DNA from: Hydrotalea sp.
Lineage (GTDB): Bacteria; Bacteroidota; Bacteroidia; Chitinophagales; Chitinophagaceae
Direction of reading: 5' to 3'
DNA: 64,000 nucleotides
Assembly: GCA_027364735.1 (NCBI GenBank)
Contig: DAHXOT010000023.1
Coordinates: forward strand, 1 to 64,000
The notes beneath the pieces were generated by a model. The model was not told the DNA's origin. It was given only the letters and a program-made list of their open reading frames with translations, and made no database searches. Position 1 is the first letter of the stretch. The number at the start of each line of letters is the position of its first letter. Of the stretch, positions 47,639-59,806 are shown piece after piece. Position numbers and translations under genes: made by a program.

Positions 47639-48895
47639 TTAGATAAGATATCCAAAAAGTGTATCATTTTTATTAATTTCCGAATAATCTATGTTAAACG
47701 AGTGCATGCGATTAATGAGCGAAGTATAATCCTTTTTATCTAAAAGCTCAATTCCCACCAAAGCAGGGCCTGTTTCTTTATTGGTTTTTTGCATGTATTC
47801 AAATCTGGTAATATCATCGGTTGGGCCTAAAACGCAATTTAAAAATTCTCTTAATGCTCCAGGTCTTTGTGCAAACCGAATAAGAAAATAATGTTTTAGT
47901 CCTTCATATTGTAAGGATCTTTCTTTAATTTCCGGCATACGATCAATATCATTATTACTTCCACTTACAATACAAACAATGGTTTTACCTTTTATTTTAT
48001 CGGCGTAGTTATCCAATGCTGCAATACTAAGAGCACCTGCCGGCTCTACAACAATAGCTTCTTCATTGTATAATTTTAAAATTGTTGTACAAACTTTGCC
48101 TTCAGGAACTAACTGAATATCGTTTAAAACATTACTGCAAATATTAAATGTAATATCTCCAATACGTTTTACTGCAGCTCCATCAACAAACCTATCAATT
48201 TTATCAATTGTAACGGGGTGCCCTTGGCGAAAGGCTTCCGTCATAGATGGAGCACCTTGTGGTTCAACTCCTATAATTTTTGTTTTTGGTGAGATAGTTT
48301 TAAAATAGGTGCCAATTCCGGCACTTAAACCTCCACCACCAATAGGTACAAAAACATAGTCTATAGCAGATAAATCTTCTAAAATTTCAACAGCAACTGT
48401 TCCTTGACCTTCAATAATTTTATAATCATCAAAAGGAGGAATAAAAGTCATTTGGTTTTCTTCTGTGTATTGTTTTGCTGCAATGGCACAATCGTCAAAT
48501 GTATCGCCAATGAGTTTTATTTCTATATTTTCACCACCAAACATTTTAGTTTGATTAACTTTTTGTTTAGGTGTAATAATGGGCATAAATACAACACCGT
48601 TAGTGTTTAATTTTTTGCAGCTATAAGCAAATCCTTGTGCATGATTACCGGCACTGGCACATACTACACCACGTTGCAGTTTTTCGTTGGGAAGTGTGCT
48701 CATCATATTAAAAGCACCACGCAATTTATAAGAGCGTACTATTTGCAAGTCTTCTCTTTTTAAATATACATTGCATTGATATTTATTGGATAAATTATGA
48801 TTGAGTTGAAGTGGTGTTTTGGTAATCACTTTCTTTAATCTCAATGCTGCTTCACCAAACTGTAATTGATGTGATATGGGATTTGTAATAAACAT
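47639..48895 (-). CDS. ilvA: Threonine ammonia-lyase
   Basis: PLP enzyme of 418 residues that deaminates threonine to 2-oxobutyrate, the entry to isoleucine. PLP lysine in VRSYKLRGAFNMM (about 55-67), ASAGNHAQGFAYS and the glycine loop VPIGGGGLSAGI. The C-terminal part (about 325-418) has one ACT-like regulatory domain (HYFLIRFAQRPGALREFLN), shorter than the double domain of E. coli IlvA. Last gene of the ilv group; links the thr operon to isoleucine. A strong hairpin precedes it. Confidence 0.94.
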   Translation of the reverse strand: MFITNPISHQLQFGEAALRLKKVITKTPLQLNHNLSNKYQCNVYLKREDLQIVRSYKLRGAFNMMSTLPNEKLQRGVVCASAGNHAQGFAYSCKKLNTNGVVFMPIITPKQKVNQTKMFGGENIEIKLIGDTFDDCAIAAKQYTEENQMTFIPPFDDYKIIEGQGTVAVEILEDLSAIDYVFVPIGGGGLSAGIGTYFKTISPKTKIIGVEPQGAPSMTEAFRQGHPVTIDKIDRFVDGAAVKRIGDITFNICSNVLNDIQLVPEGKVCTTILKLYNEEAIVVEPAGALSIAALDNYADKIKGKTIVCIVSGSNNDIDRMPEIKERSLQYEGLKHYFLIRFAQRPGALREFLNCVLGPTDDITRFEYMQKTNKETGPALVGIELLDKKDYTSLINRMHSFNIDYSEINKNDTLFGYLI

Positions 48896-48903
48896 ATTAA
48901 TTG

Positions 48904-48938
48904 AAACCCTTGAAGATTCAACTCTTCAAGGGTTTTTT
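48904..48938 (+). terminator. Strong hairpin between ilvC and ilvA
   Basis: Arms AAACCCTTGAAGA and TCTTCAAGGGTTT (48904-48916, 48923-48935) pair perfectly over 13 bases. The T-run (TTTTTTAT) is on the plus strand, whereas both flanking genes are read on the minus strand, where only TTTCAATT follows. It may partly terminate ilvC transcription, protect mRNA ends, or stop antisense transcripts. Confidence 0.6.
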
Positions 48939-48953
48939 ATATTTAATCAAATT

Positions 48954-50003
48954 TTATTTTTGATTTTCAGGGCGTAATGAACGAACTGTTTTACCTGCTT
49001 GCCACATTTCGCTATCGTGTAATTCTTTCAACTCGGCATCTAATTTTTCGCGATAATCGGGTTGAGAGTTAGAATCAATAGAACGTTGAGATTCTTTACC
49101 TGTTGCAACACTTTCGTATAGTTCTTTAAATACCGGAGCTGTTGCATCACGAAACTTTTTCCACCAATCTAATGCACCACGTTGGGCTGTAGTAGAGCAA
49201 TTGGCATACATCCAATCCATTCCATTTTCTGCAACCAATGGCATTAACGATTGTGTTAATTCTTCAACAGTTTCGTTAAAGGCTTCACTTGGTGTATGGC
49301 CGGCATCGCGTAATACTTGATATTGTGCTGCAAAAATACCTTGTATAGCACCCATCAATGTTCCGCGTTCGCCTGTTAAATCGCTGTAAACTTCTTTCTT
49401 AAAATTTGTTTCAAACAAATAACCACTTCCTACGGCTATGCCTAATGCAATAGCTCGTTCTCTTGCCTTACCGGTTGCATCTTGGTACACAGCATAACTG
49501 CTATTTAAACCTCTTCCTTGTAAAAACATTCTTCTTAAAGAAGTACCTGAACCTTTAGGAGCAACTAAAATAACATCAACATCGGCAGGAGGAATGATTC
49601 CTGTTTGATCGTTAAAAGTGATCCCAAAACCATGCGAAAAATATAATGCTTTACCGGCAGTTAAATGTTTTTTTACTGTTGGCCATAATGCAATTTGTGC
49701 AGCATCGCTTAATAAATAGCAAAAAACAGTTCCGCGTTCTAATGCTTCTTCAATTTCAAATAAAGTTTCTCCCGGAACCCAGCCATCGGCAACTGCTTTA
49801 TCCCAAGTTTTAGAATTTTTACGTTGACCAATAATTACATTAACTCCATTATCGCGTTGGTTTAATGCTTGTCCGGGGCCTTGTACACCATAACCAATTA
49901 CAGCAACAGTTTCGTTTTTTAAAACTTCCTGTGCTTTACTCAGTGGAAACTCTTCGCGGGTTACTACAGTTTCTACAACACCGCCAAAATTTAATTGTGC
50001 CAT
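48954..50003 (-). CDS. ilvC: Ketol-acid reductoisomerase
   Basis: Second enzyme of valine/isoleucine synthesis: isomerises and reduces acetolactate or acetohydroxybutyrate. 349 residues. NADPH-binding Rossmann motif VIGYGVQGPGQALNQRD (about 35-51); metal-binding catalytic block SDLTGERGTLMGAIQGIF with the DxxxE pattern; C-terminal knotted helices GALDWWKKFRD. The GxGxQ loop and acidic sites are intact. 185 bases from ilvN, with a dispersed hairpin in the gap. Length suits the short subgroup of Bacteroidota. Confidence 0.95.
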   Translation of the reverse strand: MAQLNFGGVVETVVTREEFPLSKAQEVLKNETVAVIGYGVQGPGQALNQRDNGVNVIIGQRKNSKTWDKAVADGWVPGETLFEIEEALERGTVFCYLLSDAAQIALWPTVKKHLTAGKALYFSHGFGITFNDQTGIIPPADVDVILVAPKGSGTSLRRMFLQGRGLNSSYAVYQDATGKARERAIALGIAVGSGYLFETNFKKEVYSDLTGERGTLMGAIQGIFAAQYQVLRDAGHTPSEAFNETVEELTQSLMPLVAENGMDWMYANCSTTAQRGALDWWKKFRDATAPVFKELYESVATGKESQRSIDSNSQPDYREKLDAELKELHDSEMWQAGKTVRSLRPENQK

Positions 50004-50057
50004 TTTTGTTTTGTTTACTGATTTAATAGTTGTGTTTGTTTTTTGTTATCGGCTGTA

Positions 50058-50095
50058 GTACAAGTAGGTGCTTCTGTTGCGTCGCACTCTTGTAC
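50058..50095. repeat. Dispersed hairpin repeat, copy 3
   Basis: Arms GTACAAG (50058-50064) and CTTGTAC (50089-50095), inner GTGC/GCAC, and core GTTGCGTCGCAC (50076-50087). It lies in the ilvN-ilvC gap. Core orientation is the same as in the other three copies; the outer arms differ in sequence from copy to copy but still pair. Confidence 0.68.
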
Positions 50096-50188
50096 ATTTT
50101 GTTTTTGTTCGTCTTTTTTTAAATTACTTTTTAAAGGCAACTGCTTTACTATAATGCAATACAATACAGCATTGCAATTCAATAATAA

Positions 50189-50776
50189 CTACATGCTAAA
50201 TACTTTATCTTGTTGATTTAAGAATTCATTTTCCATTAAATCTTCTCCAGGTTGTTCTTCGTCGAATTCTTTTAATTTTTCGTGAAAGCCACTACTTGTT
50301 TTAATAATAGCAACTCTTGCACTGCGAACAAATTCAATTAATCCGTACGGTTCTAATGCTTTAATTAATTTCTCAATTTCTTCTCTGTGGCCAGTAGTTT
50401 CAAAAACAGTATAATCTTTTCTTATAGCAACTGCTCTTGCTCCATATTCACGTAATAAGCGTTCTACTTTTACTTTTTCTGCAATAATATCTGTTGGTAC
50501 TTTATACAGAGCCAATTCTTGCCAAACAATTTCATCGTTGGTATTAAAATATGCTTTTAAAACCTCTACTTGTTTTTCAATTTGGCGACAAAGTTTTCGA
50601 ACTACTTCTTCGTACTCGTTGATGATAATGGTGAAGCGATGAATACCTTCGGCTTCTGATGGAGAAACATTTAAACTTTCTATATTAATTTTTCTTCTGG
50701 AAAAAATAATGGCAATACGATTTAATAAACCAACTTGGTTTTCGGTATATACGGTTATGGTAAATTCTTGTTTCAT
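50189..50776 (-). CDS. ilvN: Acetolactate synthase small (regulatory) subunit
   Basis: A 195-residue regulatory subunit with an N-terminal ACT domain (FTITVYTENQVGLLNRIAIIFSRRKINIESL, about 4-34), which binds valine, and a second ferredoxin-like domain (KVPTDIIAEKVKVERLLREYGARAVAI... onward) that ends LIEFVRSARVAI. It stimulates and feedback-inhibits IlvB. It starts 28 bases after the ilvB stop, so the two are co-translated. Confidence 0.94.
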   Translation of the reverse strand: MKQEFTITVYTENQVGLLNRIAIIFSRRKINIESLNVSPSEAEGIHRFTIIINEYEEVVRKLCRQIEKQVEVLKAYFNTNDEIVWQELALYKVPTDIIAEKVKVERLLREYGARAVAIRKDYTVFETTGHREEIEKLIKALEPYGLIEFVRSARVAIIKTSSGFHEKLKEFDEEQPGEDLMENEFLNQQDKVFSM

Positions 50777-50804
50777 TTTGTATTTGCTTTAAAGGATATT
50801 TATT

Positions 50805-52541
50805 TTATTTTAATCTTATTTCGCTTACGCTGCATCCTTGTGGTACCATAGGAAATACGTTATTTTCTTTTCCTACCATTACTTCTAATAAATAGGCTCC
50901 CTTATGGTTAAGCATTTCTTGTAAAGCGGTTTTCAAATCTTTTCTATCTTTTATACTCTTACCTGCAATTCCATAGCCTTTGGCAACTTGTACAAAATCG
51001 GGACTTTGAATATCTACAAAAGAATAGCGTTTATCGTTAAATAGTTGCTGCCATTGGCGAACCATTCCTAAAAAATTATTATTTAAAATAATAATTTTTA
51101 CTTCGGGTTTGTATTGCATAATAGTGCCTAATTCTTGTATTGTCATTTGAAAACCTCCATCGCCAACAATTTCAATAACGGTTCTTTCCGGAGCACCCAT
51201 TTTTGCACCTATAGCAGCCGGTAGGCCAAATCCCATAGTGCCTAAACCGCCCGAGGTTATATTGCTTTTTGTGTGATTAAATTTTGCATAACGGCAGGTT
51301 ACCATTTGATGCTGACCCACATCGGTTACAATAATGGCATCGCCATTAATTAATTCATTTAAGGTTTTAATTACTTCACCCATTGTCATAATATCTGAAG
51401 TGGGATTTAATTCATTGTGAATCACCACATCAATTTCTTGCTGCTTATATTCATTGAATTTATTCAACCAAGCCGTGTGTTGTTTTTCTTCAATTAATTT
51501 AGTTAGCAGTGGTAAAGTTTCTTTACAATCGCCCCAAACCGGTACGGTTGTTTTTACATTTTTATCAATTTCAGCAGGATCAATATCTAGATGAATAATT
51601 TTTGCTTGTTTAGCATATTTATCTAAGCGACCTGTTACTCTATCATCGAATCGCATTCCAACTGCAATCAATACATCGCATTCGTTGGTTAAAACATTGG
51701 GGCCGTAATTGCCATGCATGCCCAACATTCCTACATTTAGAGGATGCTCTGTTGGTAAGGCACTTAAGCCCAATAAAGTCCATGCCGATGGAATTCCTGC
51801 TTTTTCAATAAAAGCTTTAAATTCTTTTTCTGCTTTACCAAGTATTACACCTTGACCAAAAAGTACAAAAGGTTTTTCGGCTTTATTAATTAATTCGGCA
51901 GCTTGTTGTATATATTCTTTTCTGATGATTGGTTTTGGCCGATAACTTCTAATATGCTCGCATTTGGTATAACCTGTGTAATCTATTTTTTGAATTTGGG
52001 CATTTTTGGTAATGTCTATTAAAACAGGTCCGGGGCGACCGGTTTTAGCAATATAAAAAGCTTTGGCTAAAACATGAGGAATTTCGTTAGCATCGGTAAC
52101 CTGATAATTCCATTTAGTAACCGGAGTAGTAATATTAATTACATCTGTTTCTTGAAAAGCATCAGTACCTAATAAATGGGCAAATACTTGTCCTGTTATA
52201 CAAACCAGCGGTGTACTGTCAATCATTGCATCAGCCAATCCGGTAACTAAATTAGTAGCCCCCGGTCCACTTGTTGCAAAAACAACACCCACTTTTCCGC
52301 TACTACGGGCAAAGCCTTGTGCCGCATGAATGGCTCCTTGCTCATGGCGAACTAAAATATGTTTTAATTTATCCGGATAATCGTATAATGCATCGTATAT
52401 GGGCATAATGGCACCACCCGGGTAACCAAAAATTGTTTGTACATCTTCGGCTATACAAGCTTCTAATAAAGCCTTTGAACCACTTATGCTTTGTATTGTT
52501 TTTTCAGCTTCTTTTTGTTTTGTTAGTTCAAGCGTTTCCAT
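50805..52541 (-). CDS. ilvB: Acetolactate synthase large (catalytic) subunit
   Basis: Thiamine-diphosphate enzyme of 578 residues that condenses pyruvate with pyruvate or 2-oxobutyrate. TPP-activating Glu in VRHEQGAIHAAQGFAR (about 65-80); QETDVINITTPVTKWNY in the N domain; FAD-type middle domain (VGMRFDDRVTGRL); TPP/Mg motif GDGGFQMTIQELGTIMQYKPEVKIIILNNN, written in part as GDGGFQMT ... NN (about 449-478). Complete. Gap to the DinB gene upstream is 102 bases and holds a hairpin repeat. Confidence 0.96.
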   Translation of the reverse strand: METLELTKQKEAEKTIQSISGSKALLEACIAEDVQTIFGYPGGAIMPIYDALYDYPDKLKHILVRHEQGAIHAAQGFARSSGKVGVVFATSGPGATNLVTGLADAMIDSTPLVCITGQVFAHLLGTDAFQETDVINITTPVTKWNYQVTDANEIPHVLAKAFYIAKTGRPGPVLIDITKNAQIQKIDYTGYTKCEHIRSYRPKPIIRKEYIQQAAELINKAEKPFVLFGQGVILGKAEKEFKAFIEKAGIPSAWTLLGLSALPTEHPLNVGMLGMHGNYGPNVLTNECDVLIAVGMRFDDRVTGRLDKYAKQAKIIHLDIDPAEIDKNVKTTVPVWGDCKETLPLLTKLIEEKQHTAWLNKFNEYKQQEIDVVIHNELNPTSDIMTMGEVIKTLNELINGDAIIVTDVGQHQMVTCRYAKFNHTKSNITSGGLGTMGFGLPAAIGAKMGAPERTVIEIVGDGGFQMTIQELGTIMQYKPEVKIIILNNNFLGMVRQWQQLFNDKRYSFVDIQSPDFVQVAKGYGIAGKSIKDRKDLKTALQEMLNHKGAYLLEVMVGKENNVFPMVPQGCSVSEIRLK

Positions 52542-52643: not shown

Positions 52644-53138
52644 TTATTTTTTTCTGTAAATTCCCAATAAATCAGTTGATGTTATTTGTTCGAAACCTAC
52701 CTGCCGTAGCATAGTTACTAACTGGCCACGATGATAAGTTCCGTGATTGACGACATGTGCAAACAACTGATAAAAGGGCATTGAATAACTTGCTCCGTTT
52801 AACCTTTTAAAATTAAGATTGCTTAATAATTTCTCTTCTTCAAAATCATCAATAAAAGTTTTTAAATTACTCGAAGTGGTTTTCCATAATTCTAAATGTT
52901 CCTGTTTTGATCCATTATATTCCGATTGTAGCCAAATAATATTGTCATTGCCTTCAAATCGCTCTAACCATGCTTTCTCTGCACTTATTATGTGTAAAAC
53001 TGTTTGCCTAATACTTGTAAAGCTGCTTACTATTTCGTGGTTCCATTGTTCATCAGTAATTTGTTCTATCCAATTACAAACAGTTGTATTGGCCCACAAA
53101 TTATATTCAGCAAGTTCTTTAAAATATTGTTTTGTCAT
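52644..53138 (-). CDS. DinB family protein
   Basis: Four-helix bundle of the DinB/YfiT superfamily, 164 residues. The three metal-ligand His are at the usual places: HIISAEKAWLERF (His50), and HVVNHGTYHRGQLV near residues 128-136 with two more. Family members include bacillithiol-dependent or mycothiol-type transferases and thiol-related enzymes, but the substrate here is unknown. It sits inside the ilv cluster, 12 bases after the TonB-like gene, with no known role in branched-chain synthesis. Confidence 0.85.
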   Translation of the reverse strand: MTKQYFKELAEYNLWANTTVCNWIEQITDEQWNHEIVSSFTSIRQTVLHIISAEKAWLERFEGNDNIIWLQSEYNGSKQEHLELWKTTSSNLKTFIDDFEEEKLLSNLNFKRLNGASYSMPFYQLFAHVVNHGTYHRGQLVTMLRQVGFEQITSTDLLGIYRKK

Positions 53139-53150
53139 AGTAGTTAAAAT

Positions 53151-53969
53151 TTATCTTTGTGCTGATACGATGAATGTGATTGATTGTTTATGATGACTAA
53201 TTACAGGTTGATTGAATTGAATTGCCGGAATCCATTTCGTGCTATTCTTTATTATTCTTTCTGCTTCTTCTTTTGTTCCATATCCTGGATCATTTTCTGC
53301 TTGTACATCGCTAATTGCACCGGTTGTATCTATAATAAAATTTACTACTACTGTATATTTTCCTGGAGGTGCTCCATTTTCAATCGGCAAATTTCTATTT
53401 AAATTGCTTTCTATATATTTTAGCCAATCTGCTGGTCCGCCCGGAAATTCTGAAGGTTGTTCAAAAATATAATCGGAAATTTGGTTACCTTCTTCATCAA
53501 AAACATAATTTTCCAACTTGTCAAAAGCTTTCCTTTTGTATACATGAGCCCAAAGTTTTCCGTTTTCATAAAAAGCCCATGTATCATAAGTTCCTGATTC
53601 TTTACCATACTTAGTAACTCTTTTCTTATTACTATTTTCATAATACTGGTATTCAAAAATTATTTTTCCATTTGGATAATAAAACATTGAATCTTTAATT
53701 TTCCCTGATTCATAATAGCAAATAACAGTTCCAATTGCACCATTTAAATTTGAATCAACAGCCATAAATTTGCTATATAACTTGTTAGAAGATGAATAAT
53801 AAGCTGTGCAATTATAAAAACTATCACGATCTTCAAATTGATAATAGTATGTAGAATTTTCTTTTGGTACAACTTTAAAAAGTGTATCGTAATATTTTAT
53901 AATTACTTTGTTTTGTGCATTCAAAGTAGTTAATGAAAAAATAAATACTATTATTAAAATCAATCTCAT
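53151..53969 (-). CDS. TonB C-terminal domain protein with MORN-like repeats
   Basis: A 272-residue protein: signal peptide (RLILIIVFIFSLTTLNAQ), a central set of antitoxin/MORN-like repeats (YYESGKIKDSMFYYPNGK, FYENGKLWAHVY, about 85-150) and a C-terminal TonB-type domain (about 185-272) with GKYTVVVNFIIDTTGAISDV and IKNSTKWIPAIQFNQPV. The order MORN-like plus TonB_C is common in Bacteroidota. It lacks the inner-membrane anchor and Pro-rich span of true TonB, so a classical energy-transfer role is doubtful. Between ilvD and dinB. Confidence 0.78.
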   Translation of the reverse strand: MRLILIIVFIFSLTTLNAQNKVIIKYYDTLFKVVPKENSTYYYQFEDRDSFYNCTAYYSSSNKLYSKFMAVDSNLNGAIGTVICYYESGKIKDSMFYYPNGKIIFEYQYYENSNKKRVTKYGKESGTYDTWAFYENGKLWAHVYKRKAFDKLENYVFDEEGNQISDYIFEQPSEFPGGPADWLKYIESNLNRNLPIENGAPPGKYTVVVNFIIDTTGAISDVQAENDPGYGTKEEAERIIKNSTKWIPAIQFNQPVISHHKQSITFIVSAQR

Positions 53970-53993: not shown

Positions 53994-55679
53994 TTAATTT
54001 TCATCCGTTACACAACCTTCTGCAGCAGTTGTAACCAGTTTAGCATATTTATATAAAACGCCATTAGTTGCTTTTAATGCGGGTTGTTTCCATGCGGCTC
54101 TTCTTTTAGCAATCACATCATCAGCAACTTTTAAAGTAAGTAAATTTTTTGTTGCATCAATTTCAATAATATCATTGTCTTCAACTAATGCAATTAGTCC
54201 GCCTTCTTGTGCTTCGGGAGTAATATGGCCAACAACAAATCCATGTGTTCCGCCACTAAATCTTCCATCGGTAATTAATGCAACCGATTTACCTAAACCT
54301 GCCCCAATAATGGCTCCGGTAGGTTTTAGCATTTCGGGCATACCCGGTGCACCTTTAGGTCCAATGTTTCTAATAACCACCACATCGCCTGCATGTACTT
54401 TTCCATTTTTAATTCCTTCAATTACATCTTTTTCGCCATTAAAAACTCTGGCAGTTCCTTCAAAACGTTCGCCTTCTTTGCCACTTATTTTTGCCACACT
54501 TCCGCCTGTTGCCAAGTTGCCGTACAAAATTTGTAAATGGCCTGTTGCTTTTAATGGTTTATTTAAAGGAGCAATTATTTTTTGTTGATCGAAATCTAAA
54601 TCTTTTGCATCGGCTAAATTTTCTGCAACTGTTTTTCCGGTAACAGTTAAACAATCGCCATGTAGCATGCCATTTTTCAATAAGTATTTCATTACTGCAG
54701 GAACACCACCATATTGATGCAGGTCTTCCATTAAATATTTTCCACTTGGTTTAAAATCTGCAAGTACAGGAACTTTATTACTAATAGTTTGAAAATCATC
54801 TTGCGTTAATGAAACGCCAACACTTTTTGCCATTGCTATTAAATGTAATACAGCGTTGGTACTACCACCAAGAACCATTACTACCGTAATTGCATTATCA
54901 AACGCTTTACGTGTCATAATATCTATAGGCTTAATATCTTTTTCCAATAATAATTTTATGGCTGCACCAATTTCTGCACATTCTTTTTGTTTGTCTTTGC
55001 TTATTGCAGGATTAGAGGAAGAATACGGTAAACTCATTCCTAATGCTTCAATAGCACTAGCCATAGTATTGGCTGTGTACATGCCACCGCAAGCGCCGGC
55101 ACCCGGGCAACTATGTTTTACAATACCTTTAAAATCGGCTTCACTTAAATTGCCTGCCAATTTTTGGCCTAATGCTTCAAAGGCTGAAACAATATTTAGA
55201 TCTTCGCCATGATAATGACCTGGTGCAATGGTTCCTCCATACAACATTATTCCCGGGCGATTTAACCTGCCCATTGCGATAATAGATCCGGGCATATTTT
55301 TATCGCAACCCGGAACAGTAATAATTGCATCATAATATTGAGCACCGGCATTAGTTTCAATGCTATCGGCAATAACTTCTCTGCTTACTAAACTATATCT
55401 CATACCATCTGTGCCCATGCTAATCCCATCGCTTACGCCAATAGTATAAAAACGCAAGCCTAGTAAACCACTTTCTTCAACACTTTTTTTAATATCGTTT
55501 GCCAAATCGTTTAAATGCATGTTACAAGGATTGCCATCCCAGCCCATACTTGCAATACCCACCTGTGGTTTTTTAAAATCTTCATCTTTAAATCCAATAG
55601 CATAATACATTGCTTGTGCTGCAGGTTGTGTTTCGTCTTGTGTTAATGTTTTACTGTACTTATTTAATTCTGCTGACAT
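53994..55679 (-). CDS. ilvD: Dihydroxy-acid dehydratase
   Basis: Fe-S dehydratase making the 2-keto acids of valine and isoleucine; 561 residues. Cluster ligands: GCDKNMPGS (about residue 124) and [16 protein letters not shown] (about 191-206), plus the N-terminal CNMHL. Other conserved blocks are [10 protein letters not shown] and [18 protein letters not shown]. The closest homologues have a [2Fe-2S] or [4Fe-4S] cluster; I cannot tell which. First structural gene after the ilv attenuator, whose terminator ends about 80 bases upstream. Confidence 0.96.
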
Positions 55680-55758
55680 TCTTTTTTGTTTAAGTTTTTA
55701 TAATCTACTTTATAAGTTTAATTTTTCTTTTATTCATCAATTGTTTTTTGTTCTACCA

Positions 55759-55793
55759 AAAAATAAAAAAACCCGCCTTTTTTGAGGCGGGTT
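55759..55793 (-). terminator. ilv attenuator terminator
   Basis: Minus strand AACCCGCC (55793-55786), 8-base loop, GGCGGGTT (55777-55770), then TTTTTTATTTTT (55769-55758). An eight-pair, GC-rich intrinsic terminator in an AT-rich background, placed between the leader peptide and ilvD, so it stops transcription before the structural genes. Its left arm also pairs with the antiterminator segment. Confidence 0.9.
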
Positions 55794-55846
55794 GGTATAT
55801 AATAAAATCGTTAAGTTTTATAAGCAACAGCCACCTCTATGAAGTG
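55784..55846 (-). promoter_or_regulatory. ilv attenuator antiterminator and pause hairpin
   Basis: Three segments on the minus strand: 1 = CACTTC (55846-55841, leader codons 23-25), 2 = GAGGTGG (55837-55831, codons 26-28), 3 = CCGCCTC (55790-55784, left arm and loop edge of the terminator). 1:2 is a six-pair hairpin with a three-base loop; 2:3 pairs seven bases (one G-U) and destroys the terminator. This is the layout of enterobacterial attenuators: a ribosome stalled at the Ile codons covers segment 1 and frees 2 to pair with 3. Confidence 0.78.
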
Positions 55847-55913
55847 CAGAAATAATAATGACACCGACAAAAATGACGTTGATAGGTATATTATTATTTG
55901 CTTTTGCTAACAT
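55818..55913 (-). CDS. ilv operon leader peptide
   Basis: A 31-codon frame from ATG 55913 to TAA 55818. Residues 9-21 contain six Ile and three Val, including three consecutive Ile codons (19-21); Leu occurs at 2, 24 and 31. The C-terminal LHRGGCCL codons form the RNA pairing segments of the attenuator, so they are probably constrained by structure, not by peptide function. A consensus promoter starts the transcript about 13 bases before its ATG, and an intrinsic terminator follows 25 bases after its stop. Function by analogy with IlvL/IlvG-type leaders. Confidence 0.88.
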   Translation of the reverse strand: MLAKANNNIPINVIFVGVIIISALHRGGCCL

Positions 55914-55932
55914 AGAAGTTATGTTGTTGCAA

Positions 55933-55963
55933 CAAATATAGGACGCCTCGATTAAAAAACAAA
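55933..55963 (-). promoter_or_regulatory. Promoter of the ilv operon
   Basis: Minus strand TTTG (55960-55963), 19-base spacer, TATATTTG (55933-55940): a full consensus Bacteroidota promoter. Start expected near 55926, 13 bases before the leader-peptide ATG. It implies that ilvD begins a transcript separate from leuA-leuB. Confidence 0.75.
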
Positions 55964-56023
55964 GAACTATTTAAGTGATGAATTGCATATTATTTTTTTA
56001 TTGCAATACAACACTTAATAAAT

Positions 56024-57139
56024 TTAAATGATGGTTGATTTTCTCAACTCAACATTTTCTTGGTTGACCTCATCGGTTATTTTATGAATTACATAATCGC
56101 TGATAAGTTCACCTACGGTTGATGTAAAATAAAAATTAATAGGATCAATATCTTTCGTAAAAAATTTATTTTGGAGAGTCCAACTAACTCCTTGTCGCAC
56201 CCTGTTCGCTTCTTCATGCATTTGAAAATAATCTAACATCATTGCAGCCGATAAAATTGCACCAATTGGGTTAGCAATATCTTTCCCGGCAGCTTCCGGA
56301 TAAGAGCCATGAATGGGTTCAAATAAAGCAGTGCAAACGCCATAAGATGCAGATGGAAGCATACCCAATGAGCCACTTAATACACTTGCTTCATCGCTAA
56401 TAATATCTCCAAACATATTTTCTGTAAGTATCACATCAAATTGTTTTGGATTAATAATTATTTGCATGGCTGCATTATCTACATACATATAATTCACAGC
56501 TATATCTGAATATTGTTGAGCAATTTCTTGAACTACTTTCCTCCATAATCTCGATGTTTCTAAAACATTCGATTTGTCAATTAAGGTTAATTTTTTTCTT
56601 CTTAGTCTTGCATTTTGAAATGCAATGTGTGCAATACGTTCAATTTCTGAAACATGATAGATTGATTCATCGATAGCTTGTGTTCCATCGGAACTGGTTT
56701 CTTTTTTCCCAAAATAAATGCCACCGGTAAGTTCTCTAAAAATAATAAAATCTACACCTTCTAACTGTGTTTCTTTAAGTGGGGAAAGGTGTTGAACAGC
56801 AGGATAGGTAATAATTGGACGAATGTTTGAAAAAAGCTGTAAAGATTTTCGTAATTTAAGTAATCCATGCTCGGGCCTTACTTTAGCTGAAGGATTATTA
56901 TCATATTTAGGATCTCCTATTGCGCCGAATAAAATAGCATCACTATTTAAGCAAATTTCAATGGTTTCATCGGGCAAAGGATTACCTGTTTGTTCAATAG
57001 CTCCTGCACCCATTAAACAATACGTGAAATTAAACTGATGCTTATATCTTTCTGCAACTGCATTTAAAACCCGAACAGCTTGAGCAATTACTTCGGGGCC
57101 AATGCCATCGCCATTTATTACTGCAATATTTTTTTTCAT
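56024..57139 (-). CDS. leuB: 3-isopropylmalate dehydrogenase
   Basis: NAD-dependent decarboxylating dehydrogenase, third committed step of leucine synthesis; 371 residues. Markers: GDGIGPEVIAQAV (about 9-21), LLKLRKSLQLFSNIRP (about 94-109), FRELTGGIYFG (about 135-145), DKSNVLETSRLWRKVV (about 190-205) and ILTENMFGDIISDEASVLSGSLGMLPSAS, whose Asp residues bind the metal. The gene follows the ABC protein gene by 12 bases. Confidence 0.95.
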   Translation of the reverse strand: MKKNIAVINGDGIGPEVIAQAVRVLNAVAERYKHQFNFTYCLMGAGAIEQTGNPLPDETIEICLNSDAILFGAIGDPKYDNNPSAKVRPEHGLLKLRKSLQLFSNIRPIITYPAVQHLSPLKETQLEGVDFIIFRELTGGIYFGKKETSSDGTQAIDESIYHVSEIERIAHIAFQNARLRRKKLTLIDKSNVLETSRLWRKVVQEIAQQYSDIAVNYMYVDNAAMQIIINPKQFDVILTENMFGDIISDEASVLSGSLGMLPSASYGVCTALFEPIHGSYPEAAGKDIANPIGAILSAAMMLDYFQMHEEANRVRQGVSWTLQNKFFTKDIDPINFYFTSTVGELISDYVIHKITDEVNQENVELRKSTII

Positions 57140-57151
57140 AATTTAATAAGT

Positions 57152-58639
57152 TTATGCGGCAATAACCTTTTGCAATTTTTTTTGCAATGTTTGTTTGCCA
57201 TTTATTAGTTCCATTTTAAATTGAATGCAGGATGGAATTTCTTCATCGTAATGACTAACATAAATTAATGATGTATTAGATGCATAACAGATAGCATCTA
57301 TTAATTCTATAAAGTATGCAATATGCTCATCATCTAATCCCTGGCAAGGTTCATCTAAAACTAATAGTAGTGGATGTTTTACTAATGCCCTTGCTAATAA
57401 TACCCATCGCTGTTGACCCACAGATAAAGTGTGTAGTAGGTTATTGGCATATTTTTTCAATTCAAAAAAGTTCATCCAATTATGTAAAATTTCTTCTTGT
57501 GAAGCATTCAAATTTTTATATAAACCCATTGTATCAAAAAATCCTGATGCAATGGTTTGGTAAACAGTAATATTGGTGTCGAAATATTTATGTAATTCAG
57601 GAGAAACATAGCCAATCTTCTTTTTAATATCCCAAATACTTTCTCCTTTTCCTCTTCTTTTATCGAATAAATAAATTTCATTTGCGTATGCTTGCGGATT
57701 ATCGGCAGTTATTAAACTGAGAAGAGTAGATTTACCTGCTCCGTTGGCACCTTTTAAAAGCCATCTTTCGCCCGAAAGTATTTTCCAGTTGATTGAATTT
57801 AAAATTATTTTTTCGCCATATTTTACAGAAACGTTTTTCATAGCAAGAACTGTAGCTGCTGTTTCTTGAAAAGCAATTTGCGGAACTGGTTTGTTAAGTG
57901 AAATATTTTCTCTGTATTTAAAATGAGTTGATGCGTAATTGGCTTTTTCTGTATATCGAATTAAATTTCCTTCTTGTATTTCTGCAATATGTGTAATACA
58001 GTTGGGCAGCTCTTTTGTATTGCCTACTACAATAATGGTTGTTCCATTTTGTGCAATTGAATTTAAAGCAGCATGTAGTTCTTTTCTACTATTAATATCT
58101 AAACCGTTAAAAGCATTATCGAGTATTAAAACTTGCGGTTGCTGTATTAATATTTTAATAAGTTGCAACTTTTTTTGTTCGCCATTTGAAAGTTGAATTA
58201 ACGGAGTATTAATTCTATCTGATAAATTAAATTGTTGTAGCCAATAGTTTGTAAGTGTTTTTTTTTCTTTTGAAGAAGCAATACTGTTTATAGTACTTAA
58301 AGCCTCTGCAACTGTAATTGTATCTGTTGCATCGCAACTGTTAAAGCGTTGCTGATAATAAAAGTTAGAAATGTTTGAAAGTGTTTTCCATTTTTCCGAA
58401 TTTTCTACCAAAGTTACTTTTGGTAAAAGAAGTTGGTTGGGTGTAAAATTAATTTGTATAGTTCCTGCATAAAAAATATTGTTTGCAATAGCTTTTGCTA
58501 AAACAGTTTTGCCACTACCGGTTTTCCCGGTAATGGCAAGGTGTTGATTAGAGGCTAAATGAAAAGATATGTTATGCAATATAGTTTTACCATATTGATG
58601 AACATTTATATTGTTTACTATAATGGATGGTGTAATCAT
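57152..58639 (-). CDS. Soluble tandem ABC ATPase (ModF/PhrA-like)
   Basis: A 495-residue protein with two ABC domains and no membrane segments. Domain 1 (about 1-225): Walker A GKTGSGKTVLA, signature LSNGEQKKLQLI, and ILDNAFNGLD. Domain 2 (about 255-485): GANGAGKSTLLSL, LSVGQQRWVLLARAL and VLDEPCQGLDDEH. Domain 1 has Asn in place of the second Gly of the signature and Asn-Ala in place of Glu-Pro in the Walker B region, so its ATPase could be weak. Resembles ModF/PhrA, of unclear function. It lies between leuA and leuB with gaps of 6 and 12 bases, where leuC/leuD would usually be. Confidence 0.8.
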   Translation of the reverse strand: MITPSIIVNNINVHQYGKTILHNISFHLASNQHLAITGKTGSGKTVLAKAIANNIFYAGTIQINFTPNQLLLPKVTLVENSEKWKTLSNISNFYYQQRFNSCDATDTITVAEALSTINSIASSKEKKTLTNYWLQQFNLSDRINTPLIQLSNGEQKKLQLIKILIQQPQVLILDNAFNGLDINSRKELHAALNSIAQNGTTIIVVGNTKELPNCITHIAEIQEGNLIRYTEKANYASTHFKYRENISLNKPVPQIAFQETAATVLAMKNVSVKYGEKIILNSINWKILSGERWLLKGANGAGKSTLLSLITADNPQAYANEIYLFDKRRGKGESIWDIKKKIGYVSPELHKYFDTNITVYQTIASGFFDTMGLYKNLNASQEEILHNWMNFFELKKYANNLLHTLSVGQQRWVLLARALVKHPLLLVLDEPCQGLDDEHIAYFIELIDAICYASNTSLIYVSHYDEEIPSCIQFKMELINGKQTLQKKLQKVIAA

Positions 58640-58645
58640 TTATAA

Positions 58646-59806
58646 TTAAACTGTTACCTCAACTTGTTGTGCTAATTGATGCAAATCTTCATCTTGAATT
58701 TCTTTTTTATGATCGGCAATTTCTAAAAATTTTGCATAAATAATATCAACCGAATTTCTATTAAAATTATATCCTAAGTTCTTTAATCTGTAAGCTAATG
58801 CACTTCTGCCACTTCTTGCTGTTAAAACTATTTTAGAGGTATCGGCACCTACTTCTGTTGGATTAATAATTTCATACGTTATGGCACTTTTTAAAAATCC
58901 ATCTTGATGAATACCCGATGAATGCGAAAATGCATTGGCACCAACAATAGCTTTATTGGGCTGTACCGGCATTCTCATTGTATCGCTTACCAATTTGCTA
59001 ACAGGATTTAGTTGTTCTGATTTTATTCGGGTATAATAGCCAAGATCTTTATGTTGCTTTATAATCATTACTACTTCTTCTAAAGAGGTATTGCCTGCTC
59101 TTTCTCCTAAACCATTTATCGTACATTCAATTTGGCGTGCACCATTAATAACGCCTTCAATGGCATTTGCAGTAGCCAACCCTAAATCGTTATGGCAATG
59201 GCAAGAAAGAATAGCCTTATCAATGTTGGGAACATTGTTTTTTAGATAAGCCATTTTTGCTCCATATTGGCTGGGTAAGCAATATCCTGTTGTATCGGGA
59301 ATATTTACTACGGTAGCACCTGCATTAATTACTGTTTCAACTACTTTTGCCAGATATTCATTATCGGTACGGCCTGCATCTTCAGCATAAAATTCAACTT
59401 CATCTACAAAATTTCTTGCCCATTTTACACACTGTTTTGCACGTTCTAAAATATCTGTTCTATTAGAGTTGAATTTTCCTTTTATATGGTAATCGGATGT
59501 TCCAATTCCTGTATGAATGCGTTTATGACGTGCCGGTTTTAATGCTTCTGCAGCTACTTCAATATCTTTTAATACAGCACGACTTAATCCGCATACAGTA
59601 GTGTTTTTAATAAGTTTTGAAATTTCGGTAACCGATTCAAAATCTCCGGGAGATGATATGGGAAATCCGGCTTCCAGTATATCAACACCCAAATCTTCTA
59701 AAACTAATGCTAATTCTAACTTTTCTTTCGTATTTAATTTACAACCCGGCACTTGTTCTCCATCGCGAAGTGTAGTGTCGAAAATATAAACCTTATTATC
59801 GTTCAT
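58646..59806 (-). CDS. leuA: 2-isopropylmalate synthase, short form
   Basis: Condenses acetyl-CoA with 2-oxoisovalerate, the first leucine step. 386 residues. Catalytic TIM barrel: [15 protein letters not shown] (about 8-22), [17 protein letters not shown] with the metal His pair (about 200-216), and [14 protein letters not shown]. Linker subdomain: HSSGIHQDG and [19 protein letters not shown]. The chain ends soon after, at about residue 386, so the C-terminal leucine-binding dimer domain (about 120 residues in full-length enzymes) is missing. A homocitrate or citramalate synthase role cannot be excluded, but linkage to leuB favours leucine. Confidence 0.88.

Follow-up and report, generated by a model that had tools for sequence, protein, structure and literature searches.

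A candidate Ile/Val leader-peptide attenuator upstream of ilvD in Hydrotalea and its relatives in Chitinophagaceae

Introduction

What lies between leuB and ilvD in Hydrotalea sp., and how might it act on the genes behind it? In the 64,000-nucleotide stretch of contig DAHXOT010000023.1 (assembly GCA_027364735.1) analyzed here, which we call the window, this space holds a short frame rich in Ile and Val codons, followed by a stem-loop and a T-run. A preliminary description drawn up from the letters of the window had read it as a classical attenuator of the enterobacterial kind, with a leader peptide, three pairing RNA segments, and a terminator. By comparing the locus with relatives in its own family, Chitinophagaceae, and in three other families of its class, we find that the element is very likely a ribosome-mediated transcription attenuator for an Ile/Val operon, one that would very probably switch the Ile/Val genes off when isoleucine and valine are plentiful.

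The locus and its promoter

The first gene past the terminator is ilvD (dihydroxy-acid dehydratase; 53994-55679, on the minus strand like every leader feature described below), which matches TIGR00110 above its cut-off (E 5.6e-224). ilvB, ilvN, ilvC, and ilvA follow on the same strand at 47639-52541 (TIGR00118, TIGR00119, TIGR00465, and TIGR02079, each above cut-off), giving the order ilvD-x-x-ilvB-ilvN-ilvC-ilvA in one direction, and the genes from ilvD through ilvA are probably co-transcribed. The first of the two frames between ilvD and ilvB (53151-53969) has weak, sub-threshold matches to TonB-C and MORN, and the second (52644-53138) belongs to the DinB family. On the 5' side of the leader, the neighbors are leuA, an ABC ATPase gene, and leuB. 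The ATPase gene (57152-58639), lying between leuA and leuB, has ModF as its closest NCBIfam model, under the cut-off of that model; leuA (58646-59806) encodes 386 amino acids that cover positions 3-383 of the 516-position 2-isopropylmalate synthase model, without the C-terminal part. A search of the host genome for a second copy of the leader, using the covariance model R1 introduced below, gave a single match under E 0.3, the ilvD leader itself, the next being at E 0.37.

Upstream of the leader, TTTG (55960-55963) is separated by 19 nt from TATATTTG (55933-55940), which in turn stands 19 nt from the leader ATG. We take this pair to be a Bacteroidota-type promoter (-33 / -7 consensus), and the promoter that had been proposed 19 bases 5' of the leader is borne out by its relatives: a box resembling TAnnTTTG or TAnnTTCG occurs in all 25 family leaders compared, at 15-19 nt from the start codon in 23 of them (25 nt in L025 and 31 nt in L012). 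TTCTTTG is found within 75 nt 5' of the start in 17 of these 25 leaders and TCTTT in five more; L023 and L048 have neither, and the stretch used for L062 is cut short. Transcription would start about 10-15 nt 5' of the leader ATG. Shine-Dalgarno sequences are largely absent from the mRNAs of this phylum.

The leader frame and the terminator

The leader peptide gene (55818-55913) consists of 31 codons and a TAA stop codon and translates as MLAKANNNIPINVIFVGVIIISALHRGGCCL*. Nine Ile/Val residues fall in codons 9-21 (55851-55889), ending in three consecutive isoleucines (19-21), exactly as the preliminary description had it. Such a density, nine Ile/Val per 13 residues, is reached by one of the 885 short frames in the 64-kb window (ATG starts, 12-60 amino acids, nested starts included), namely the ilvD leader. 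The alignment of the 25 family leaders has 24 gaps in its coding part, and the length of every one is a multiple of three. Judged from its sequence, 55913-55818 is a coding frame, and it appears to be a short leader in which codons for the amino acids of the operon are clustered.

Between this leader and the first structural gene lies an intrinsic terminator stem-loop, AACCCGCC/GGCGGGTT (55770-55793), with a T-run to 55765. The RNA of leader and terminator together folds at -39.5 kcal/mol (z -4.49), with none of 200 shuffles as low. In relatives the stem covaries strongly, with both sides changed in 26 cells where shuffles give 7.2 and none of 500 gets that high, and in 35 cells versus 8.3 in a larger set; the GC-rich terminator and T-run of the preliminary description are upheld in both place and pairing. 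Three terminators in the 64-kb window passed our filter, and a strong upstream complement exists only at the ilvD leader (-15.5 kcal/mol, versus -6.5 and -6.3 for the others).

Conservation among relatives

From 546 ilvD loci we kept and named the best 80, most of which come from Chitinophagaceae or from bins named no more closely than Bacteroidota, the few others including an Elizabethkingia; 78 have at least 250 nt of upstream sequence. Leader and terminator stand directly 5' of ilvD in 18 of these 78 (16 called automatically, L033 and L043 by inspection), and in another 17 the leader lies 1.0-1.5 kb farther upstream. The detector found nothing on the reverse strand (0/78) or in Markov shuffles (0/1560); its 18 matches in 1510 other tiles comprise 17 real leaders farther up and one spurious call. 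A separate search of 60 family genomes, 43 of which have ilvD, yielded 30 listed loci, and 11 of these, the window included, carry leader and terminator directly 5' of ilvD (L012 by way of a TTG start). The covariance model R1 matched 114 of 195 family genomes at E <=0.01, the host of the window among them, and gave no match in the remaining 81. The leader module is common in Chitinophagaceae.

At the 30 R1 loci listed from the 114 matching genomes, the next gene, called from its N-terminal letters, is ilvD in 14 cases, ilvE-like in 15, and another frame in one. Three of the 15 ilvE-like genes were profiled, and all three match TIGR01122 (ilvE_I) above cut-off. leuB lies upstream at these three loci (identified by profile at L213, and by 281/371 and 248/371 identical residues at L226 and L215), where the module sits between leuB and the ilv gene as it does in the window. 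Left out of alignments A1 and A2 were L010, L017, and L032, which duplicate the leaders of L049, L068, and L003, and L013, which is nearly identical to L062; a subset of 42 loci was submitted to the model. The preliminary description had proposed a comparison of orthologous ilvD upstream regions, and in these the frame, the Ile/Val run, its spacing, the promoter, the antiterminator, and the terminator are all kept.

A short hydrophobic frame with a terminator behind it might also encode a functional small (membrane) peptide, the hairpin merely terminating that frame or read-through from leuB. Frames of this sort do occur before ilvD: in L125, L127, and L128, they are membrane-like, followed by a terminator, and Ile-rich (41%). 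Their composition, however, differs from that of the family leaders, whose hydrophobic run is 43% Ile, 31% Val, 5% Leu, and 2% Phe, versus 8% Val, 26% Leu, and 18% Phe in those three. In the 22 leaders from other families described below, the run is 34% Ile, 25% Val, and 12% Leu. This composition fits the genes behind the leader, which make isoleucine and valine. Further, the C-terminal part of the leader peptide follows the RNA sequence complementary to the terminator arm, whereas its N-terminal start is variable, and 29 of the 30 R1 loci listed have ilvD or an ilvE-like gene next, all of which makes a membrane peptide very unlikely as the explanation of the family leaders. L125, L127, and L128, which belong to one genus (g71), probably represent an unrelated upstream gene.

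The antiterminator

Segment 2 (GAGGTGG and GTTG, 55825-55837) forms the 5' strand of an antiterminator lying just past the sensor codons, and segment 3, CAACCCGCCTC (55784-55794), forms its 3' strand and overlaps the 5' arm of the terminator, the duplex reaching the -15.5 kcal/mol given above. The cores, GAGGTGG (55837-55831) and CCGCCTC (55790-55784), had been singled out in the preliminary description; the antiterminator extends beyond them, as GTTG (55828-55825, in two Cys codons) can pair with CAAC (55794-55791), for a total of 11 bp with a 2-nt bulge.

In relatives, segment 2 mostly reads GGAGGTGG, and the outermost pair of the family's 2:3 stem, a GC pair, has been lost on both sides in the window. 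The family antiterminator GGAGGTGG/CCGCCTCC is paired in 86-90% of cells, versus 44-56% for versions slid out of register. It is also nearly invariant, with one compensatory cell (L012) and shuffles that reach the observed values; in alignment A2, L043 and L049 are offset by one codon, which lowers its 2:3 and 1:2 counts. Because the antiterminator hardly varies within the family, pair counts there neither support nor refute it, and we therefore compared leaders from other families.

This wider survey covered 91 loci, 66 of which have no leader by our detector and 25 of which have an Ile/Val/Leu-rich frame followed by a terminator. The long membrane-like frames of L125, L127, and L128 were set aside before counting, which left 22 leaders, drawn from three further families in the class. 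Segment 2 reads, for example, GTGAGGCACT, TGAGAATGGT, GCTGAGAGAGGT, AAGGAGAGTGGTTTT, or TAGGGAGGGTT in these leaders, and in each case it is complementary to the terminator arm of that leader. Summed over the 22, pairing with the leader's own partner gives -330.9 kcal/mol, versus a mean of -223.3 (sd 14.5) for permuted partners, a difference (z -7.4, 0 of 20000 permutations as low) that is optimistic since the 22 leaders are interrelated. Taken singly, 14 of the 22 duplexes are stronger than at least 95 of 100 shuffles, and the other eight are not. The pairing GAATGGC/GCCATTC of L134 was judged by eye. The earlier claim that segment 2 can pair with a segment 3 overlapping the terminator is thereby sustained, by the duplex in the window and by its preservation with other letters elsewhere.

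Two variants in this wider set deserve mention. In L137, L138, L145, L150, and L158, which lie 5' of ilvD in another family, the stop codon of the leader falls in or beside segment 2 (as in GGTGAGGCACT), an arrangement that appears to be the same switch laid out differently. The congeneric leaders L119 (MMQISIIITSVVVVNV...) and L120 (MMQISIIITSVIVVNV...) keep the terminator with changed letters and have weak antiterminators (-6.3 and -9.1 kcal/mol).

The stem between segments 1 and 2

Segment 1, CACTTC (55841-55846), lies within the spacer that a stalled ribosome would cover. In the enterobacterial scheme adopted by the preliminary description, segment 2 alternates between segments 1 and 3, the 1:2 stem acting as protector and pause signal. 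Both stems can form in the window, the 1:2 stem being CACTTC/GAGGTG with 6 bp and -5.4 kcal/mol, and CACTTC recurs at the corresponding position in the congener L003 and in L074. A shorter pairing, UUCC/GGAG, whose letters are nearly invariant, is compatible with 95% of cells across 41 distinct rows, and in 19 of 25 leaders the 1:2 pairing exceeds the mean of the leader's own synonymous recodings.

Against a functional 1:2 stem, the strength of the free duplex in the family is at chance (mean z 0.0, n=25), and its mean z rises only to 0.5 when measured against synonymous recoding or codon shuffling; in the window, recoded leaders pair equally well in 25% of trials. Column pair counts reveal no compensatory changes between segments 1 and 2, and CACTTC adjoins segment 2 in three of the 25 rows of alignment A1 (the window, L003, and L074) and in two of the 42 rows of A3. 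We consider the full enterobacterial scheme, with a working protector and pause stem, unlikely at this locus, and the 1:2 stem probably dispensable; an untranslated leader may therefore default to read-through rather than termination. What is retained of the earlier account is the leader, terminator, antiterminator, and spacing, all conserved, while its 1:2 stem is not established as conserved. Of the compensatory changes that it anticipated in the three stems, the terminator shows them clearly and the 2:3 stem is kept with other letters outside the family, but 2:3 is nearly invariant inside it and 1:2 has none.

Spacing and proposed mechanism

In 19 of 25 family members, 12 nt separate the last Ile/Val codon of the run from segment 2. 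The gap measures 13 nt in the window and its congener, which both have an altered first base in segment 2, 11 nt in one leader, 9 nt in two, and 21 nt in L011, whose longest run stops sooner and whose gap comes to 12 nt if its last Ile pair is counted. In other families it falls between 7 and 15 nt in 21 of 22 leaders. The stretch between segment 2 and the end of the stop codon is more variable (12-27 nt in the family), the stop codon in the window ending 20 nt past the start of segment 2. About 12 nt corresponds to the front of one ribosome, and for a stalled or passing ribosome to mask segment 2, a nearly fixed distance of this size would be needed.

We propose the following course of events. 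When charged Ile- or Val-tRNA is short, a ribosome would stall in the Ile/Val run with its front edge covering only the spacer, leaving segment 2 free; segment 2 would then pair with segment 3, occupying the 5' arm of the terminator, and the polymerase would read into ilvD and beyond. When isoleucine and valine are plentiful, the ribosome would move on across segment 2 as far as the stop codon, and with segment 2 masked the terminator would form and transcription would end near 55765.

Switches between an antiterminator and a terminator are also used by other regulators, and the terminator could in principle be controlled by an RNA-binding protein, a small RNA, or a ligand-sensing RNA, with the leader frame incidental. 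But no Rfam family, T-box included, matches the element at the gathering score, and control of this kind needs neither codon-wise gaps, nor residues cognate to the pathway, nor a nearly fixed distance from sensor to segment 2; we regard it as highly improbable. The same can be said of nascent-peptide arrest, in which the leader peptide would sense free Ile or Val in the ribosome tunnel instead of tRNA charging. The C-terminal residues ...IIIPALHGGG are alike among family members, as such a mechanism would have it, yet the residues past the Ile/Val run differ in other families, and the peptide is therefore not conserved as a sensor; the likeness within the family arises because the RNA segment is encoded there. 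Stalling at the Ile/Val codons according to tRNA charging remains our preferred reading.

Choice of valine codons

Valine in the leaders is disproportionately encoded by GTC, with 49 occurrences in the 25 family leaders, where the ilvD genes of the respective genomes would predict 12.9, and 41 versus 10.9 in the 22 others, counts to be read in the light of the relatedness of the leaders and of the conserved family RNA stretch GTCATTATTATT, which could contribute part of the bias. In the other families the bias is present amid different surroundings. In the window, GTC makes up all three leader Val codons, versus 3 of 287 in 12 window genes. The isoleucine codon ATA is below expectation (20 versus 32.2 in the family, 10 versus 20.4 in the others). 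According to the theory of Elf and Ehrenberg, attenuators use starvation-sensitive, often rare codons (PMC1183508), and the occurrence of GTC in leaders of several unlike families offers an independent test case for it.

A tRNA family search of the host genome listed at least 30 matches, among which ARAGORN identified tRNA-Val(UAC) as the sole tRNA-Val, in a list that is incomplete and contains no tRNA-Ile or tRNA-Ala. A first pattern for tRNA-Val(GAC) gave one match, not tRNA-like by eye, this form of the pattern recovering 0 of 21 known tRNA genes; with a shorter gap it recovers 15 of 21, missing tRNA-Val. A second pattern gave two matches, also not tRNA-like by eye, in a form that the known tRNA-Val, whose T arm differs, is unable to match.

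Taken together, these features hint at a Bacteroidota design of Ile/Val attenuator that dispenses with a conserved protector stem. With the sensor run ending one ribosome front (12 nt) short of segment 2, any ribosome past the last Ile codon would mask it, the rare GTC codons would serve as a valine sensor, and an untranslated leader would lead to read-through, the opposite of enterobacterial superattenuation. We put this composite forward tentatively, as a possibility that may well not hold in full.

Comparison with known systems

A permissive Rfam scan of 55650-56050 gave 37 matches, none over its family cut-off and none to a T-box. Those to amino-acid leaders fall well short of the gathering scores: Phe_leader (RF01859) with 25 bits versus 55, Trp_leader (RF00513) with 19.2 versus 41, and Thr_leader (RF00506) with 19.1 versus 55. 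T-box leaders (presumably RF00230) likewise couple tRNA charging to terminator formation. The Bacteroid-trp RNA (RF01692), which to judge from its name presumably lies upstream of trp genes, has no match in the window at the gathering score; it is a Bacteroidetes cis-regulatory candidate (Weinberg et al. 2010, PMC2864571).

The closest counterpart by pathway is the ilvXGMEDA attenuator of E. coli. Its leader peptide IlvL has an Ile/Val run followed by Pro, MTALLRVISLVVISVVVIIIPPCGAALGRGKA, and the family leaders end in a similar way (...VVVVIIIPALHGGG-like). The core VVVIIIP of IlvL (L272:823-921) is common to Bacteroidota leaders, by descent or convergence. The E. coli terminator arm also has an 8-bp complement in the leader, a candidate antiterminator as in Hydrotalea, but one that begins 5 nt past the last Ile codon, compared with about 12 nt in the Hydrotalea family. 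Five of the six Val codons of IlvL are GTG, whereas Bacteroidota leaders are enriched in GTC. The promoter type and the 1:2 pause stem of the E. coli attenuator are not known to be shared by the Hydrotalea family. Branched-chain attenuators were reportedly predicted by Vitreschak and colleagues in 2004, with Bacteroidetes/Chlorobi said to be among the groups having some attenuators.

Within the phylum, work on Flavobacterium psychrophilum describes strong indications that leader peptides control attenuation ahead of amino-acid operons, together with newly found structured 5' elements without Rfam hits, those named lying upstream of pheA and hisG among others (Guerin et al. 2021, PMC9723704). 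These attenuators share both phylum and proposed mechanism with the Hydrotalea leader, and ilv has 0 occurrences in the main text of that paper. A Bacteroides thetaiotaomicron transcriptome study likewise mentions short frames reminiscent of leader peptides that mediate attenuation (PMC7366714). The preliminary description had pointed to the enterobacterial mechanism in a Bacteroidota genome; its presence there is supported, and, given the F. psychrophilum work of 2021 (PMC9723704), it is not new to the phylum. We regard the Ile/Val leader family itself, which no Rfam entry matches above its cut-off, as new and well supported by sequence comparison, and the mechanism proposed for it as an ordinary, textbook one. 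Being sharply defined, such an attenuator family would make the coupling of ribosome and RNA polymerase testable at one locus in these bacteria.
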